Below, piece by piece: positions 16,046 through 30,943 of a stretch of DNA of 64,000 nt. Source of the stretch: Halococcoides cellulosivorans. Its GTDB lineage: Archaea > Halobacteriota > Halobacteria > Halobacteriales > Haloarculaceae. The notes under the pieces were generated by a model, which was not told the origin of the DNA, did not search any database, and saw nothing but the letters and a program-made list of their open reading frames with translations. Made by a program: the position numbers and the translations under genes. The stretch lies in the NCBI RefSeq assembly GCF_003058365.1, contig NZ_CP028858.1, positions 1,116,001-1,180,000 on the forward strand, in the 5' to 3' direction. Numbering within the stretch: position 1 is the stretch's first letter; every line of letters starts with the position of its first letter.

Positions 16046-16747
16046 ATGCCGACCGAGTCCGAGCCGTTTGCGTCCCGCCACGCAACGTCGCGTCCTGACG
16101 GCTATCCGCCGGACTGGTAGGCTCGACGACAACGCGTCATCGAGCGCGATCAGTTCACCTGCCAGTCGTGTGGCCTGAAGAGCACGCGCATCGAACGGGT
16201 CCCGTTCGATATCGACCACATCGTTCCCAAATCCGAGGGTGGCACGCACGCCCTGGAGAACCTCCAGACGCTGTGTCCGGTCTGTCACGCCGAGAAACAC
16301 CCCGACGTCGACCGACTCCAGCGTCGCGCCCGCCAGTTTCGCCAGCGCAACCGCCCATCGACGCTGTTTCGGGCGATCGCCGTCCTGACGGTGCTCCCAG
16401 CACTGCTTGGCCTCCACCGGCCCGCTGGCACGCTGGATCGGTACGGGCGACGGATCGCGGTCGACCGCGTCGAGCACGCGGTCGGGAGCGCCGAGGGATC
16501 GGATGTCACCGTCGAAGTGATGCCGACGGAGCTCTGGACGGCGGACGACGCGAGTGTCCAGCAACTGGGGCGGCTCCGCGATCTGAACGGAACCGGTTCG
16601 ACCGTCCGATTCGTTGCGTGGGCTGGCAACGATCTGCCCCGGATGGAGCGCGACCACCAGTATCGCCTCTTCGGAGCGCGGGTGGACACCTACGAGGGTC
16701 ACGACCAGCTCGTTCTGGACTCGCTGACCGATATCGAACAGCTCTGA
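16046..16747 (+). pseudogene. HNH nuclease with C-terminal OB-like domain, broken by one TAG
   Basis: A continuous frame of 233 codons from ATG 16046 is interrupted only by TAG at 16118-16120 (codon 25). After the TAG the frame encodes an HNH/zinc domain with FTCQSCG, the DIDHIVPKSEGG core, and LCPVCHAEKHP. A hydrophobic patch (~118-128) follows, then an OB-like tail (VRFVAWAGNDLPRM). No ATG or GTG occurs in frame between the TAG and codon ~116, so the HNH domain cannot be made by internal initiation. TAG ends several intact genes here, so readthrough is unlikely. Probably a recent nonsense mutation, or a sequencing error. Confidence 0.75.
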
Positions 16748-17402: not shown

Positions 17403-18203
17403 ATGTCCGACAAGGACTTTATCAGTCGGCGAAAAGCGCTGAAAGGAATCGCAGGCTCGCTTGCGCTGGGGTCAGTACCGGCGGTTGGGTCGGCCAAACG
17501 GATGTCGCCAAACGGAAAGCCCGAACCTGGGCACCCGGAAGCACCCGGAGGCCTCGACGACAAACTTTCGGTGGAAGACGGAAAGGTCGTCGTCGAGGGA
17601 GAGTCCGAGATAAATGACGAGATAGTTTCGACTCTCGACCAACCTGTTGTCGAAAGCGACACTGGCAGCGTGTCCGCTACGGAAACTACTGCAACCGTCG
17701 AGATTCCAGAAGTGACGGCAGGGACGGTTGCTGAGTTCATCAACAAAGGGGTCGAGAACGGCGATTTCGAGGTGTCGTCAGAAAACGGCCAGGTGGCAGT
17801 TACCCCGACCGTCGACACATCAGAGATCGAAAGCGACAGCACCAAATTGCAGGACGACGCTTCGATCCAGCACACCAACTGTGGGAAGAACGATCTCATA
17901 TACGACAATGGCATGTACATAAGGAGTCTGAAGGCCTGGACGGATCACGACCTCACCGATGAAGTCGTCTATTGGATTCAAACAGGCGCAAAGGCGACCG
18001 CAGTTGCGGGCCTTATCGTCGCCGCTGTTCCACACCCGTACGCAAAGGTTTCCGGGGTGTGCATCTCCATTCTCGGTATCATTATCAACTGGATCGGCAG
18101 TACGATCAAACACATCGATGATGGGTGTGGCGTCTACTGGGAGCGGACCGAGATGATAACCGGGCCAGCGGCGCCTCTCGAAATGACGGTCGAGGCCCAG
18201 TAG
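17403..18203 (+). CDS. Tat-exported protein with hydrophobic C-terminal domain (halocin-like layout)
   Basis: 266 residues. The Tat signal is ISRRKALKGIAGSLALGS (~7-24) with cleavage near GSA. A polar, acidic middle (~35-155) contains threonine-rich TVEIPEVTAGTVAEFI. The C-terminal domain (~158-266) holds three cysteines (HTNCGK, SGVCIS, DDGCGV) and a long hydrophobic stretch (~195-235: ATAVAGLIVAAVP and ISILGIIINWIG). Codon use is more AT-rich than its neighbours. A small membrane protein follows 37 nt later. The secreted precursor plus membrane partner resembles halocin C8-type precursors with an immunity partner, but the cysteine pattern does not match halocin C8. Function not recognised. 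Confidence 0.7.
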   Translation: MSDKDFISRRKALKGIAGSLALGSVPAVGSAKRMSPNGKPEPGHPEAPGGLDDKLSVEDGKVVVEGESEINDEIVSTLDQPVVESDTGSVSATETTATVEIPEVTAGTVAEFINKGVENGDFEVSSENGQVAVTPTVDTSEIESDSTKLQDDASIQHTNCGKNDLIYDNGMYIRSLKAWTDHDLTDEVVYWIQTGAKATAVAGLIVAAVPHPYAKVSGVCISILGIIINWIGSTIKHIDDGCGVYWERTEMITGPAAPLEMTVEAQ

Positions 18204-18240
18204 GCAAAATAGTTACCTCAGTACAAATACATTCTAAGTA

Positions 18241-18429
18241 ATGGTGGTAGAGATAGAAAAACCCTGGATGTTGGCGTTCGCCGTCTTCTTAGCTGTTGCC
18301 GGGGTGGCCGGGCTTCTATGGGACACAGGAGAGAGCGCGCTAGTGGTGGAATTGCTGTACTATCCAGCAGTTTTCATCAGTGCCGTTGGCTTCGGTTTGG
18401 CGTCTGTCGGAGTGGGGCCGTGGCAGTAA
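18241..18429 (+). CDS. Small two-TM membrane protein, possible immunity partner
   Basis: 62-residue protein with two hydrophobic helices (~9-28 and ~37-58) and no recognised motif. It lies 37 nt after the AT-rich Tat-exported protein on the same strand and shares its AT-rich composition, so the two probably arrived together. A role in protecting the producer from the upstream secreted product is inference only. Confidence 0.6.
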   Translation: MVVEIEKPWMLAFAVFLAVAGVAGLLWDTGESALVVELLYYPAVFISAVGFGLASVGVGPWQ

Positions 18430-18853
18430 CTACCTCCCGGTTTTGAACAGCCGGTTCCTCGCGCCATACCGCCGTTTTGTGTCTGATCGAAAACAAGCAA
18501 GGCTGCGTGAAGACGGTCGCTGATCCCGATGGCGCTGCGAGCCCGTCGACAAGCGGTGGACCAGCAACCGATAGTGACGATCGTTCAAGCCCGGTCAGAC
18601 GTCGAGTCGGTCAGCAGTGACCATGCACCACGTTGGCGTCGTGATGATTGGCGATTCCCTCGGGATCCGGCTCGTGACCCTCGGTCTGTGCCCCAGACCG
18701 AGAGTTCGGAATTCGATATGACGCCTTCGAATGCTCTGGCCGCGGCCGGACTTTTCTTGACGAGGATAGTTGCGTTGTGGCCCTCGATGGTCCACACCTC
18801 GCAATCACTCCCCTCAACACCGACCCTCGCCCCGCTCGGGTCGGCGATCGATC
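18430..18853. other. 424-nt gap without a convincing gene
   Basis: Several short minus-strand frames (for example 18585-18797, about 70 codons) begin plausibly but become arginine/serine-rich and antisense-like. No RNA gene or clear promoter was seen. It separates the AT-rich cassette from the duplicated ileS end and may hold decayed sequence. Confidence 0.5.
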
Positions 18854-19078
18854 TCAGGCGTCAGCGGTCGCGAGCGCCTCGATCGCGATCTCGGCCTCCG
18901 TGTCCTCTATCTCCCAGGTCTCGCGGAGTCCGTCCTCGACGGCCTCGAACGCGTCCGCCCGGACTTCCTCGGCGATCAGATCGCGATGCTCGTCGACGAA
19001 GGCAGCCACACGATCCTCGACCCCGATCTCCACTCGAATGCGCTCGTCCATGTCGAGATCCAACTCTTTGCGCATCTC
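18854..19078 (-). pseudogene. Remnant duplicate of the ileS 3' end
   Basis: 225 nt encoding the last 74 residues of isoleucyl-tRNA synthetase plus a TGA, matching 19185-19409 in length. Over 73 aligned residues, 67 are identical (differences E/D, G/S, E/D, D/E, A/S, T/A), while many third positions differ. No start or catalytic domain precedes it, because the frame runs into a dispersed hairpin repeat. It is therefore a tail fragment and not a gene. The synonymous divergence argues against a very recent tandem duplication. Confidence 0.8.
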
Positions 19079-19082
19079 GTTG

Positions 19083-19157
19083 CCACCTTTTTCGTCCTCG
19101 GGTTCGCTCCCTTCGCTCGCGAACCACTCGTCGAAAAACGTGGGCGAAAAAGACCGG
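19083..19157. repeat. Dispersed hairpin repeat, copy A
   Basis: About 75 nt nearly identical to 30870-30943. It begins CCACCTTTTTC, contains the inverted repeat GGTTCGC...GCGAACC, and ends with a GTGGGCGAAAAAGACC tail. It lies exactly between the duplicated ileS tail and ileS itself. Confidence 0.7.
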
Positions 19158-19184
19158 CCCTCGCTCCGCACCTCCGTCGCTGTC

Positions 19185-22100
19185 TCAGGCGTCGGCGGCC
19201 GCCAGCGACTCGATCGCGATCTCGGCCTCCGTGTCCTCGATCTCCCAGGTCTCGCGCAGGCCGTCCTCGACCGCTTCGAAAGCGTCGGCCCGGACTTCCT
19301 CGGCGATCAGATCGCGATGCTCCTCGACGAACGCCGCAACCCGATCGTCGACCGAAATCTCGACGCGGATGCGCTCGTCCATGTCGAGATCGAGATCCTT
19401 TCGCATCTCCTGGATCCGGCGGATCACCTCACGGGCGTACCCCTCGCTCTCGACGTCGTCGGTGATCGTACAGTCGACGTAGACGACGCCCTCGCCGTCG
19501 AGCGCCTCGAAGGCGCTCTCAGCGACGTGATCCGGCGAGTGGCGGACGATCTCGACCATCGATTCGTCGAGGTCGACGTCTTCGAGTTCGGTCGCGGACT
19601 CGACGGCGGCTTCGAGTGCGTCGATCGTCGGTTCGTCGACGCGCGCGTCGTTCAGCGCCTGCATGACGGCCTCCGCATCGGCCCCGAAGGCGGGCCCGAG
19701 CGCGCCCATGTCGGCGTCGGCCCCGTAGGTCAATTCGGCCCAGGGCTCGGCGGCGTCGAGCACGCGCACCTCCCGGGCGTTCAAACGCTCGCCGAGCAAG
19801 TCGGTGTGCGCGTCGAGTGCGGCCGCCAGGTCGGCGTCCTCGGGGTCGACGACGACCTCCGGGACGGGCCAGCGGAGTTTGCGTTCGGCGCGCTGGCGGG
19901 CGTTCGACCCCGCCTCTTCGGCCGCGCGCACGGCCGTGATCTCGGCGTCGAGGCTGGCGTCCTGGTACGCGGCGTCGACCGCGGGCCAGTCACACATGTG
20001 CACCGTCGGGTGGCCCGCGTCGCCGGTGAGATGCTGGTAGATCCGCTCGGCGGTGTGGGGGGCGTACGGTGCGAGCAACCGACAGACCGTTTCGAGGACG
20101 TGATACAGCGTCGCGTACGCGGCCCGCTTGCTCGGGCTATCGGCGGGCTCCCACATCCGCTCGCGCACTTCCTGGACGTAGAGCCGCGAGACGTCCTCGA
20201 CGATAAAGTCGAGCAGCGCGCCGACCGCGCGGTCCTGCCGGAAGTTTTCGAAACTCTCGGTCGAGGTCTCGATGACCGACTGAAGCCGACTGAGCACCCA
20301 CCGATCGACGGTGTCGAGGTCGCCCGCGACGGCGTCGAGATCGGTTGCCTCGGGATCGAACCCGTCGAGTCGCATGTACGGCAGCGGGAACCGAAAGACG
20401 TTCCAGAGGATGTTCAGCCGGCGCTCCATCGCCTCGCACTCGTCGTACGAAAAGCGCATGTCGTCGCCCTGGGGCGTGACCGAGAGCAAAAAGAGGCGCA
20501 TCGGGTCCGCGCCGTACTCCTCCATGACTTCGCCGGGTTCGACCGTAATGTTTCGCGATTTCGACATCGCGCGACCGTCGGGCATCAACGCGTGCCCGTG
20601 CATGAGGACCGACTCGTAGGGCACCTGATCGAGCGCGGCGGTCCCCATGCCGAGTTGCGACCAGAACCATCCGCGTGTCTGGTCGTGGGCCTCGATGATG
20701 ACGTCCGCGGGCCACAACTCCTCGAAGGCGTCCTCGTCGCTGGGGTAGCCCAGCGAGCCCCACGAGGCGACCGAGGAGTCCAGCCAGACGTCGAAGACGT
20801 CGGGCACGCGCGTGTAGATCACGCCGTCCTCGGTGATCGTCAACTCGTCGACGGTGTCTTTGTGGATGTCGACGCCGTCGGGATCGATCGACTGATCGAC
20901 GCGATCGGCGAGTTCTGCGCGGTCGCCGATCACGATCACCTCGCTCATGTCGCCGTCCCACGCGATGGGTTCGCCCCCGACGGTCTCCGTGGGCGTCCAG
21001 ATCGGGATCGGGATTCCCCAGTAGCGCTGCCGGGAGACGTTCCAGTCGGGCGAGTCCTCGACGAAGTCGGTAAAGCGCCCGTCGCGGGCCGATTGGGGGT
21101 ACCACTCGCTGTCCTGGATGTTGTCGAGCAGATCCTCCTTGACGTCGGTGACCGTGATGAACCACTGGTCGGTCACCAGGCGGACGATGTCCGTATCGCA
21201 GCGCCAGCACTGCCCCTCGTTGACGGTATGCCCCGATTCGCTCGCGAGCAGGCGACCGCGCTCGCGGAGGTCCGCGATCACGCGGTCGTTGGCGTCCCGG
21301 ACGAACGTGCCCGCGTACGCGCCAGCGGCGTCGGTATACACGCCGTCGGGGCCGACCGGACAGAAGATCGGCAGGTCGAGTTCCTGCCCACGCTCGAAGT
21401 CCTCCTCACCGTGGCCCGGCGCGGAGTGGACCATCCCGGTCCGGTCGCTTTCGACGTAGTCGGCGGCGTACACCTGGCCCGCGCCGTCGGCGTGGGTCGC
21501 GGCCGGGGCTTCGCCCACAAGATCGGCGAGCGGGTGGTCGTACTCCCACCCGACCAAATCCTCGCCGGACAGGGTTTCGCGGACCTCGCCGTCCTCGTAC
21601 CCAGCAGCCTCGACGACGTCGTCGCGACAGGCCTCCGCGACGTAGATGAGTCGCTCGTCGTCGCCCGTCCCCACCGAAACGGCCTGGTAGGTCGCCTCGG
21701 GGTCGATCGCGACGAACGTGTTCGCGGGGATCGTCCACGGCGTCGTCGTCCAGATGACGAGACTCCCCTCGCGATCGATCAGATCGAAGGCGACGTAGAT
21801 CGAGGGCTTCTCGACGGTGTGACGCTCGACTTCGTTGTTCGCGATCGCGGTCTCACAGCGCGGGCACTGGTTGATCGACCGCTGGCCCTGTTCGACCAGG
21901 TCGCGCTCGTGAGCGCGCTGGAACCCCCACCACGCGGCCTCCATGTACTCGGGATCGATCGTCTTGTACGGATCGTCCCAGTCCATCCAGACGCCAAACG
22001 ACTCGAAGTCGGCACGAAGCCCGTCGAGTCGCTGTTCGGCGTAGTCCTTGCACTCGTCGATGAAGGCGTCCTCACCGAACGCCTCGATGTCGCCTTTGTT

Positions 22101-22415
22101 CTCGAAATCGAGTTTTTGCTCGACTTTCGTCTCGATCGGCAGGCCGTGCATGTCGAAGCCCGGCCGATCGGTGACGTCGAAGCCCTGCATGCGGAAATAC
22201 CGGATGTAGGCGTCCTTGAGCGTCTTGTTCAGTGTCGTCCCCATGTGTGCCGACCCGGTCGTATACGGCGGGCCGTCGAGGAAGTACAGCGACTCGCCGT
22301 CCGATCGGTGGGCTTTCGTCCGTTCGTAGGCGTCGACCGCCGACCAGTGGGCCCGGGCCTCTGCCCGGGTCTCCTGGGGGTCGAACTGTTCGGAAACTTC
22401 GGCGAACCGGTCCAT
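19185..22415 (-). CDS. ileS: Isoleucyl-tRNA synthetase
   Basis: 1076-residue class I aminoacyl-tRNA synthetase charging tRNA-Ile. The HIGH-type motif is SAHMGTT (~55-61) and the KMSKS-type motif is AMSKSRN (~610). The CP1 editing domain contains VIWTTTPWTIPANT (~225). The C-terminal anticodon-binding and zinc-less archaeal extension ends in EIAIESLAAADA. The ATG at 22415 is supported by a TATA box about 26 nt upstream. Its last 225 nt are duplicated downstream. Confidence 0.96.
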   Translation of the reverse strand: MDRFAEVSEQFDPQETRAEARAHWSAVDAYERTKAHRSDGESLYFLDGPPYTTGSAHMGTTLNKTLKDAYIRYFRMQGFDVTDRPGFDMHGLPIETKVEQKLDFENKGDIEAFGEDAFIDECKDYAEQRLDGLRADFESFGVWMDWDDPYKTIDPEYMEAAWWGFQRAHERDLVEQGQRSINQCPRCETAIANNEVERHTVEKPSIYVAFDLIDREGSLVIWTTTPWTIPANTFVAIDPEATYQAVSVGTGDDERLIYVAEACRDDVVEAAGYEDGEVRETLSGEDLVGWEYDHPLADLVGEAPAATHADGAGQVYAADYVESDRTGMVHSAPGHGEEDFERGQELDLPIFCPVGPDGVYTDAAGAYAGTFVRDANDRVIADLRERGRLLASESGHTVNEGQCWRCDTDIVRLVTDQWFITVTDVKEDLLDNIQDSEWYPQSARDGRFTDFVEDSPDWNVSRQRYWGIPIPIWTPTETVGGEPIAWDGDMSEVIVIGDRAELADRVDQSIDPDGVDIHKDTVDELTITEDGVIYTRVPDVFDVWLDSSVASWGSLGYPSDEDAFEELWPADVIIEAHDQTRGWFWSQLGMGTAALDQVPYESVLMHGHALMPDGRAMSKSRNITVEPGEVMEEYGADPMRLFLLSVTPQGDDMRFSYDECEAMERRLNILWNVFRFPLPYMRLDGFDPEATDLDAVAGDLDTVDRWVLSRLQSVIETSTESFENFRQDRAVGALLDFIVEDVSRLYVQEVRERMWEPADSPSKRAAYATLYHVLETVCRLLAPYAPHTAERIYQHLTGDAGHPTVHMCDWPAVDAAYQDASLDAEITAVRAAEEAGSNARQRAERKLRWPVPEVVVDPEDADLAAALDAHTDLLGERLNAREVRVLDAAEPWAELTYGADADMGALGPAFGADAEAVMQALNDARVDEPTIDALEAAVESATELEDVDLDESMVEIVRHSPDHVAESAFEALDGEGVVYVDCTITDDVESEGYAREVIRRIQEMRKDLDLDMDERIRVEISVDDRVAAFVEEHRDLIAEEVRADAFEAVEDGLRETWEIEDTEAEIAIESLAAADA

Positions 22416-22436
22416 ACCGATGGCATTCGGGCCACC

Positions 22437-22444
22437 GCTAAAGG
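22437..22444 (-). promoter_or_regulatory. TATA box for ileS
   Basis: Minus-strand CCTTTAGC centred about 26 nt before the ileS ATG. Confidence 0.5.
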
Positions 22445-22510
22445 CGACTCGGTCGACAGCCCAGACCGGCGATCCGAAACGTTTCTGTTCGTCGGCGGGA
22501 CACTCCGGGT

Positions 22511-22738
22511 ATGGCAACACACTCGTCGATGGCGTACGGGCGCTGGACGCGCCTCGGGTTCGCGACCGGCGCACTGCTGTTCGTGGTCGGGGTCCTCGGG
22601 CATCTCGCGGTCCCCGCGTTCACCGGGCCGGCCCCCGACTGGGTCGGCACACTATTGTTCGACATGGAGGTACTGGGCGTGCTCATCGCGCTGTTCGTCC
22701 CGCTCCTTTTCGGGATCGTCCTCCCGCTGACGGAGTAA
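22511..22738 (+). CDS. Conserved small haloarchaeal membrane protein
   Basis: 75 residues with two TM helices (~15-36 and ~48-72), a polar loop containing GPAPDWVGTLLFDMEVLG, and an IVLPLTE end. The pattern is that of a conserved small haloarchaeal membrane family of unknown function. It is convergent with hemB, with only three bases between the stops. Confidence 0.72.
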   Translation: MATHSSMAYGRWTRLGFATGALLFVVGVLGHLAVPAFTGPAPDWVGTLLFDMEVLGVLIALFVPLLFGIVLPLTE

Positions 22739-30795: not shown

Positions 30796-30868
30796 GGACG
30801 CGTGGCCTAGTGGACAGGGCGAGAGGTTCCTAACCTCTCGATCGCGGGTTCGAATCCCGCCGTGTCCG
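30796..30868 (+). tRNA. tRNA-Arg (anticodon CCT)
   Basis: 73 nt including discriminator G. The 7-bp acceptor stem GGACGCG/CGTGTCC has one G-T pair; the D stem is GCCT/GGGC, the anticodon stem AGAGG/CCTCT, the loop TTCCTAA gives CCT (codon AGG), and the T arm is GCGGG-TTCGAAT-CCCGC. CCA is not encoded. A T-run that may end transcription follows at 30875-30879. Confidence 0.95.
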
Positions 30869-30869
30869 A

Positions 30870-30943
30870 CCACCTTTTTCTTCGTCGGGTTCGCTCGCTT
30901 CGCTCGCGAACCACTCCTCGAAAAACGTGGGCGAAAAAGACCC
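30870..30943. repeat. Dispersed hairpin repeat, copy B
   Basis: About 74 nt near-identical to 19083-19157: CCACCTTTTTC, then the inverted repeat GGTTCGC...GCGAACC, then GTGGGCGAAAAAGACC. It starts two bases after the tRNA-Arg. Further TTCGCTTCGCTC hairpins (30944-30985) follow. No protein is supported here. Confidence 0.7.

Follow-up and report, generated by a model that had tools for sequence, protein, structure and literature searches.

An additional ileS tail beside a dispersed covarying hairpin probably marks insertion of a small non-coding module in haloarchaea

The window, by which we mean the whole stretch of 64,000 nt that was analysed, carries on its minus strand an intact reading frame for isoleucyl-tRNA synthetase, ileS (19185–22574, 1129 codons). 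The frame contains the Pfam domains tRNA-synt_1, Anticodon_1 and DUF5915, and the start codon of the gene is likely an internal ATG. The 3' end of ileS is present twice: two 225-nt copies of the tail match one another without gaps at 88% (18852–19078 versus 19183–19409), which rules out a chance match, and each encodes the final 73 IleRS codons, starting at the Met of MRK.... We refer to the copy that is continuous with the ileS body as X1 (19185–19409, minus strand) and to the detached copy as X2 (18854–19078, minus strand). X2 is a 73-codon open frame that opens with ATG, has AGGTGG 7 nt upstream and by itself matches the end of DUF5915. No third copy of the ileS tail was found in the 2.72-Mb genome, where the 12 further matches correspond to the spacer or to short pieces.

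The two tails are separated by a 106-nt spacer (19079–19184) that contains a dispersed repeat, here called B, which the first-pass annotation did not mention. Followed along the minus strand, the left part of the spacer (19146–19184) consists of a G+C-rich terminator-like stretch (hp1) and then TTTTTC; it is followed by B itself, a conserved covarying hairpin of 63 nt, GCCCACGTTTTT...AAAAAGGTGG (19083–19145), and by a 4-nt filler, CAAC, that leads from B to the second tail (19079–19082). Tail, hp1, B and filler form a unit of 331 nt (19079–19409, minus strand), which equals the offset between the two tails and which we propose as the inserted module.

The tail copies differ at 28 nucleotides, with 4, 1 and 23 differences at codon positions 1, 2 and 3, and at 6 of 73 residues. 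The first-pass annotation had described a tail present twice, 225 nt each time, with differences at many synonymous sites and at six of 73 residues, and had suggested a Ks comparison between the copies; a dS of 0.57 and a dN of 0.049 (dN/dS ~0.09) bear this description out. The predominance of synonymous differences points to each tail having evolved as coding sequence.

In the direction of ileS, B is laid out as GCCCACGTTTTT-N3-5-GAG-YGGT-stem-ACCCGA-N3-5-AAAAAGGTGG, normally with TTTTTC directly before it. Two more sites in the same genome match 73 nt of the spacer at 92–95%, and weaker matches are found elsewhere in this genome and in many relatives. We aligned 58 copies of B. Arms could be assigned in 45 of them, giving 27 distinct inner-arm pairs, and 41 distinct apical stems were used. 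Pairing is kept in the short inner arms and in the apical stem although both differ from copy to copy. The inner-arm pairing score is 2.24 versus 1.26 ± 0.14 after shuffling, the apical stem holds 4.49 contiguous pairs versus 1.98 ± 0.22, and 0 of 2000 shuffles reach the observed value in either case, where distinct types are counted as independent although they are not fully so. This arm-by-arm shuffle test replaced RNAalifold, which on a MAFFT alignment of B returned 11 pairs only, 2 of them changed on both sides, in our opinion because arm length varies among the copies. A single copy, that between the two tails of the window, folds together with its spacer at an unremarkable energy (z −0.61), and an Rfam search of 18400–19700 gave 5 weak matches, all below the gathering score and all away from B.

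Of 392 genomes of the order, 73 contain the exact pattern GCCCACGTTTTTN{2,5}GAGNGG; they are distributed over 20 of 95 genera and belong overwhelmingly to the window's family. The reversed control pattern occurs in 0 of 392. These data show B to be a conserved family of covarying hairpins of haloarchaea, found mainly in one family. That 'TTTTTCGCCCAC' might be a common terminator occurring without B is ruled out by its single occurrence in 744 kb of ileS contigs; since this one occurrence comes with the GTTTTT of B, we assign it to B. No match to B was found in phage records, whereas viral contigs contain 3 exact matches to the pattern and 9 plasmid records match B, with no annotated gene under the match in 4 of the 4 inspected. 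A search of open-licence PMC full text yielded no description of this repeat. The window holds a second B (30870–30932, minus strand), which adjoins the 3' end of tRNA-Arg(CCT) (30796–30868, plus strand), 1 nt after it. At locus L130 of genome G009, also at tRNA-Arg(CCT), B is accompanied by partial copies of the tRNA end.

Across the order, two or three ileS tails (E ≤ 1e-8) are found in 8 of 392 genomes, with one tail in 364 and none in 20. The window's genome, G015, G031, G033, G233, G253 and G334 belong to the same family and G098 to another. In all eight of these long-tail genomes, B is joined to the tail at the identical point, GAG|ATG, and the orphan tail is open throughout its length. 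Shorter ileS-tail copies with other breakpoints follow B in G001, G013 and G143 and, by eye, in G196. The scar of a gene replacement that the first-pass annotation put forward is, as a one-off event, at odds with this recurrent junction, which is always preceded by a hairpin found at many genes; because the junction is constant and B stands at many other genes, we favour a recurrent insertion module instead. Past the ileS stop of G233 (L253), the left arm of B is enlarged by a hairpin-rich insert of tens of bases, which the otherwise near-identical B of G253 lacks.

The origin of the two tails can be read in genomes whose copies differ and for which a congener exists, namely G233, G253 and G098. 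Between G233 and G253 (genus g6), identity is 93.8% in the ileS body, 99.1% in X1 and 85.3% in X2. The comparison with congeners gives 93.3% for the body, 73.6% for X1 and 87.3% for X2 in G233 (versus G220), 93.2%, 75.8% and 88.2% in G253 (versus G286), and 92.2%, 79.6% and 88.7% in G098 (versus G091). In G233 and G253, the body stays at ~93% identity to the congener up to the junction and the switch is confined to the last ~75 codons: identity is high until GAGATG and drops in the first 20–40 nt of the tail. In G098, X1 resembles native sequence over its initial ~70 nt and foreign sequence thereafter. In the tail tree of genus g6, X2 of G233 groups with G220, and X1 of G233 with X1 of G253. 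As judged from these sequence comparisons, each of the 3 informative genomes is shown to carry a foreign tail on the gene and a native orphan. The earlier proposal that ileS was replaced from a relative thus holds for the tail in G233, G253 and G098, where a foreign joined tail stands with a native orphan, but fails for the gene as a whole, whose body is native-like with the tail alone replaced.

The tail tree pairs X1 of the window with X2 as sisters (support 100/98), as it pairs those of G015, G031, G033, G334 and G098; the two window tails also lie at about the same distance from other genera. Sister tails are, formally, the outcome that the first-pass annotation had named as speaking against replacement; in a sample without a congener of the window's genome, a local duplication and a within-genus swap are inseparable on this basis. 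Because the copies are sisters and no congener is at hand, the native copy in the window can only be inferred: by analogy with G233, G253 and G098, X1 would be the foreign, module-borne tail and X2 the displaced native one. A swap of the tail only would extend to the window by this analogy, with the low dN/dS in support. At locus L137 of G024, both tails share 86.8% identity with the nearest congener. G110 has a single tail of the foreign type of G233 (86.6%), and this tail type therefore also occurs without B.

We also compared the 600 nt to the left with the 400 nt to the right of B at 62 B loci out of 78 fetched stretches. Sixty stretches sample roughly 85 listed places with B only, with contig-end places and the end of the list omitted, and 18 further stretches were picked partly for visible tandem copies. 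A direct repeat scoring at least 22 flanks B at 27 of the 62 loci, a score reached by 7 of 583 left–right pairs assembled from separate loci and at 5 of 186 pseudo-sites; these two controls rule out that B is a dispersed repeat unconnected to gene tails. In a less selected set, composed of the 60 surveyed stretches, six from the window's own genome and the window, restricted to sites with at most one mismatch to the B ends, an abutting repeat is present at 17 of 47 strict B sites. The right-hand copy begins 0–9 nt past B at 26 of 27 loci, a filler of 0–9 nt being common at B|gene junctions, and the flanking repeats abutting B vary in length from 21 to about 245 nt. The junction points share no sequence consensus (≤0.5 bit per position; 25 sites, 3 of them inside arrays).

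Wherever a locus was inspected closely, an intact gene running in the same direction as B supplies the left copy with its 3' end; the exception is L130, where a tRNA end faces B. Genes with tail copies at B include argF, pheT, sufS, gatA, gatB, nuoI and ilvD among others, with the NCBIfam names ornithine carbamoyltransferase, PheT, SufS, GatB, GatA, NuoI, dihydroxy-acid dehydratase and malic enzyme-type protein. Of these, argF, pheT, sufS and gatB are affected in several genera, with differing breakpoints. The other 35 of 62 loci show no flanking repeat at a score of at least 22. At 14 of 30 repeat-less strict sites, the stop of a convergent open frame lies 0–6 nt to the right of B, and the right-hand base of B thus abuts such stops, and the 3' end of tRNA-Arg in the window, as well as gene-tail copies.

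Several loci carry more than two tails. Ten near-identical 171-nt units of tail and B stand in tandem at L115 (G013), behind a 343-aa gene without an NCBIfam match, and three tails are found at L038/L122. The argF genes of G013 and of G399 both show the order tail-B-tail-B'-tail, in which B and B' are different, and the middle tail in G399 resembles the argF tail of G019. The copies are near-identical at many B loci, and these together with the arrays show that ordinary tandem amplification happens too. Pooled over 22 B loci, the copies differ at 28 synonymous versus 16 nonsynonymous sites, where 24% synonymous would be neutral (p 2.6e-8). Most of the divergence therefore seems to date from a time when both copies were coding, and exchange of alleles seems to account for the synonymous excess better than a free duplicate in decay would.

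Taken together, we consider the extra ileS tail to be probably the trace of a small inserted non-coding module composed of a substitute tail, a terminator-like hairpin and B. The module would enter ileS ahead of the resident tail, such that the gene reads on into the tail supplied by the module and stays intact, while the resident tail would be pushed downstream of B and become the orphan. The foreign X1 and native X2 of G233, G253 and G098 imply this order, with foreign tail and hairpin having entered ahead of the resident tail. Entry may occur by a crossover inside the tail, as suggested by X1 of G098, which is native at first and foreign afterwards, and the source would probably be a small circle of tail and B, or transferred DNA. 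The B|gene junctions themselves may first have arisen by recombination or template switch with the breakpoint at the right-hand base of B. At that base, a break, the action of a recombinase and template switching are equally suitable causes. The fixed orientation and the preference for housekeeping genes would be accounted for by the working tail of the module, since it lets the gene survive, and the patchy spread by reverse recombination, which would remove the module without trace. Some observations stand against an insertion module. The convergent stops at 14 of 30 repeat-less sites are left unexplained by it, X1 and X2 are sisters in the window and five relatives, the copies of G024 are equidistant from the congener, and the tail in G110 occurs without B. 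Moreover, 35 of 62 B loci have no flanking repeat scoring at least 22, the junctions lack a consensus, and arrays and identical copies attest to ordinary tandem amplification.

Part of this evidence suits readings in which the duplication is local. Tandem duplication within one genome, with the tail copied by a template switch at the B hairpin or by recombination and then subject to gene conversion, would involve no movement between genomes; it matches the arrays of tail and B with 10 copies at L115 and 3 tails at L038/L122, the near-identity of copies at many loci, and the sister copies in 6 of 8 ileS cases. The foreign X1 of G233, G253 and G098 contradicts it for those three genomes, however, and neither a synonymous share far above neutral nor a hairpin common to unrelated loci and genomes is in its favour; as a general account we regard it as unlikely. 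A similarly unlikely account makes B a MITE-like transposable hairpin that creates long, variable target-site duplications, the copies being diversified later by recombination between strains. The variable length of the repeats that abut B speaks for such an element, as does the gene that carries the insert in G024 (L137), which is a single place in six congeners. Insertions of IS1549/IS1634 are described as generating long, variable direct repeats, for which 8–514 bp is reported (PMC2266710), and in this respect resemble the B loci. Those elements are, however, insertion sequences with a transposase, and both of their repeats are copies of one target, whereas X1 is foreign in the 3 of 3 informative genomes, for which a MITE-like hairpin needs a second event. 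Random insertion would moreover not yield repeats that nearly always hold gene 3' ends in the sense direction.

Two further readings concern ileS itself. Replacement of the whole gene by the copy of a relative, with the old 3' end left behind, would agree with the divergence rich in synonymous sites and with the native orphan tail in three relatives, but the bodies are native-like until the junction in G233, G253 and G098, eight genomes share the junction and carry the hairpin there, and B is present at other genes too. We judge whole-gene replacement to be highly improbable, and we also find little reason to expect that the second tail is a retained small gene, encoding a free-standing 73-residue C-terminal piece of IleRS with its own ribosome-binding site. 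A small gene would be consistent with the AGGTGG that lies 7 nt before the ATG in the window, with the open frames of all eight long orphan tails and with the window dN/dS of about 0.09; set against these are its presence in 8 of 392 genomes only, the shortness of orphan tails at other genes, and the fact that a foreign and a native allele explain the low ratio equally well.

An insertion module has a partial counterpart in the e14 prophage of E. coli icd, which is of the phage 21 type. The e14 element supplies icd with a substitute gene end and leaves 163 bp of the native end as a pseudo-copy (as described for icd in PMC6379469). The same arrangement, with the end borne by the element joined to the gene and the native end displaced, is seen in G233, G253 and G098. 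In contrast to a prophage, the module described here is 331 nt long, its hairpin serves many genes and arrays are possible; the 106-nt spacer is too small to encode an integrase of the e14 type. Short palindromic repeats without a transposase are likewise known from haloarchaea as the PATEs and SMRs of Haloquadratum, of which PATEs and SMR-A are reported to produce no target duplication (PMC3119063); B differs in having flanking tail copies at 27 of 62 loci.

The module also resembles an integron cassette in combining a coding end with an imperfect hairpin with covarying arms, in its fixed orientation, and in forming arrays with differing hairpins. The core boxes of attC sites are RYYYAAC and GTTRRRY. 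By inspection, these boxes are absent from B, whose ends are CCCACGTTTTT and AAAAAGGTGG. Integrons of archaea have been reported in MAGs of nine phyla, in a paper whose main text contains no word beginning with Halo (PMC9668308). A more far-reaching reading, which we put forward tentatively and consider doubtful, is a haloarchaeal recombination system whose site is the hairpin B in folded DNA and by which gene-tail cassettes are exchanged between cells. Tail and B would be cut out or copied at the hairpin base and move between cells, and the travelling cassette would recombine into the same housekeeping gene elsewhere, swapping the C-terminus and leaving the gene unbroken. If true, this would amount to an integron-like system for gene ends.

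Should the insertion module be confirmed, essential genes of haloarchaea, among them those of tRNA synthetases, amidotransferase and biosynthetic enzymes, would have swapped their C-terminal ends between species, with a tiny non-coding module as the vehicle and visible orphan tails as the trace of a partial gene exchange. Odd annotated 3' duplications would be explained and the insertions would be testable. The B family also offers an obvious starting point in the search for the enzyme, or the accident of replication, behind the junctions.

We note two further features of the window. At 16046–16747 lies an HNH-type frame (CxxC ... DHIVPKSEGG ... CPVCH) with one in-frame TAG at codon 25, just ahead of the stretch ARRQRVIERD. 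An A+T-richer island of about 54% GC (17403–18429) contains a 266-aa frame starting MSDKDFISRRKALKGIAGS, followed by a 62-aa hydrophobic frame, neither with a Pfam match. The start of the 266-aa frame looks like what we take to be a twin-arginine signal, and the two frames presumably resemble a halocin-type precursor and its partner.
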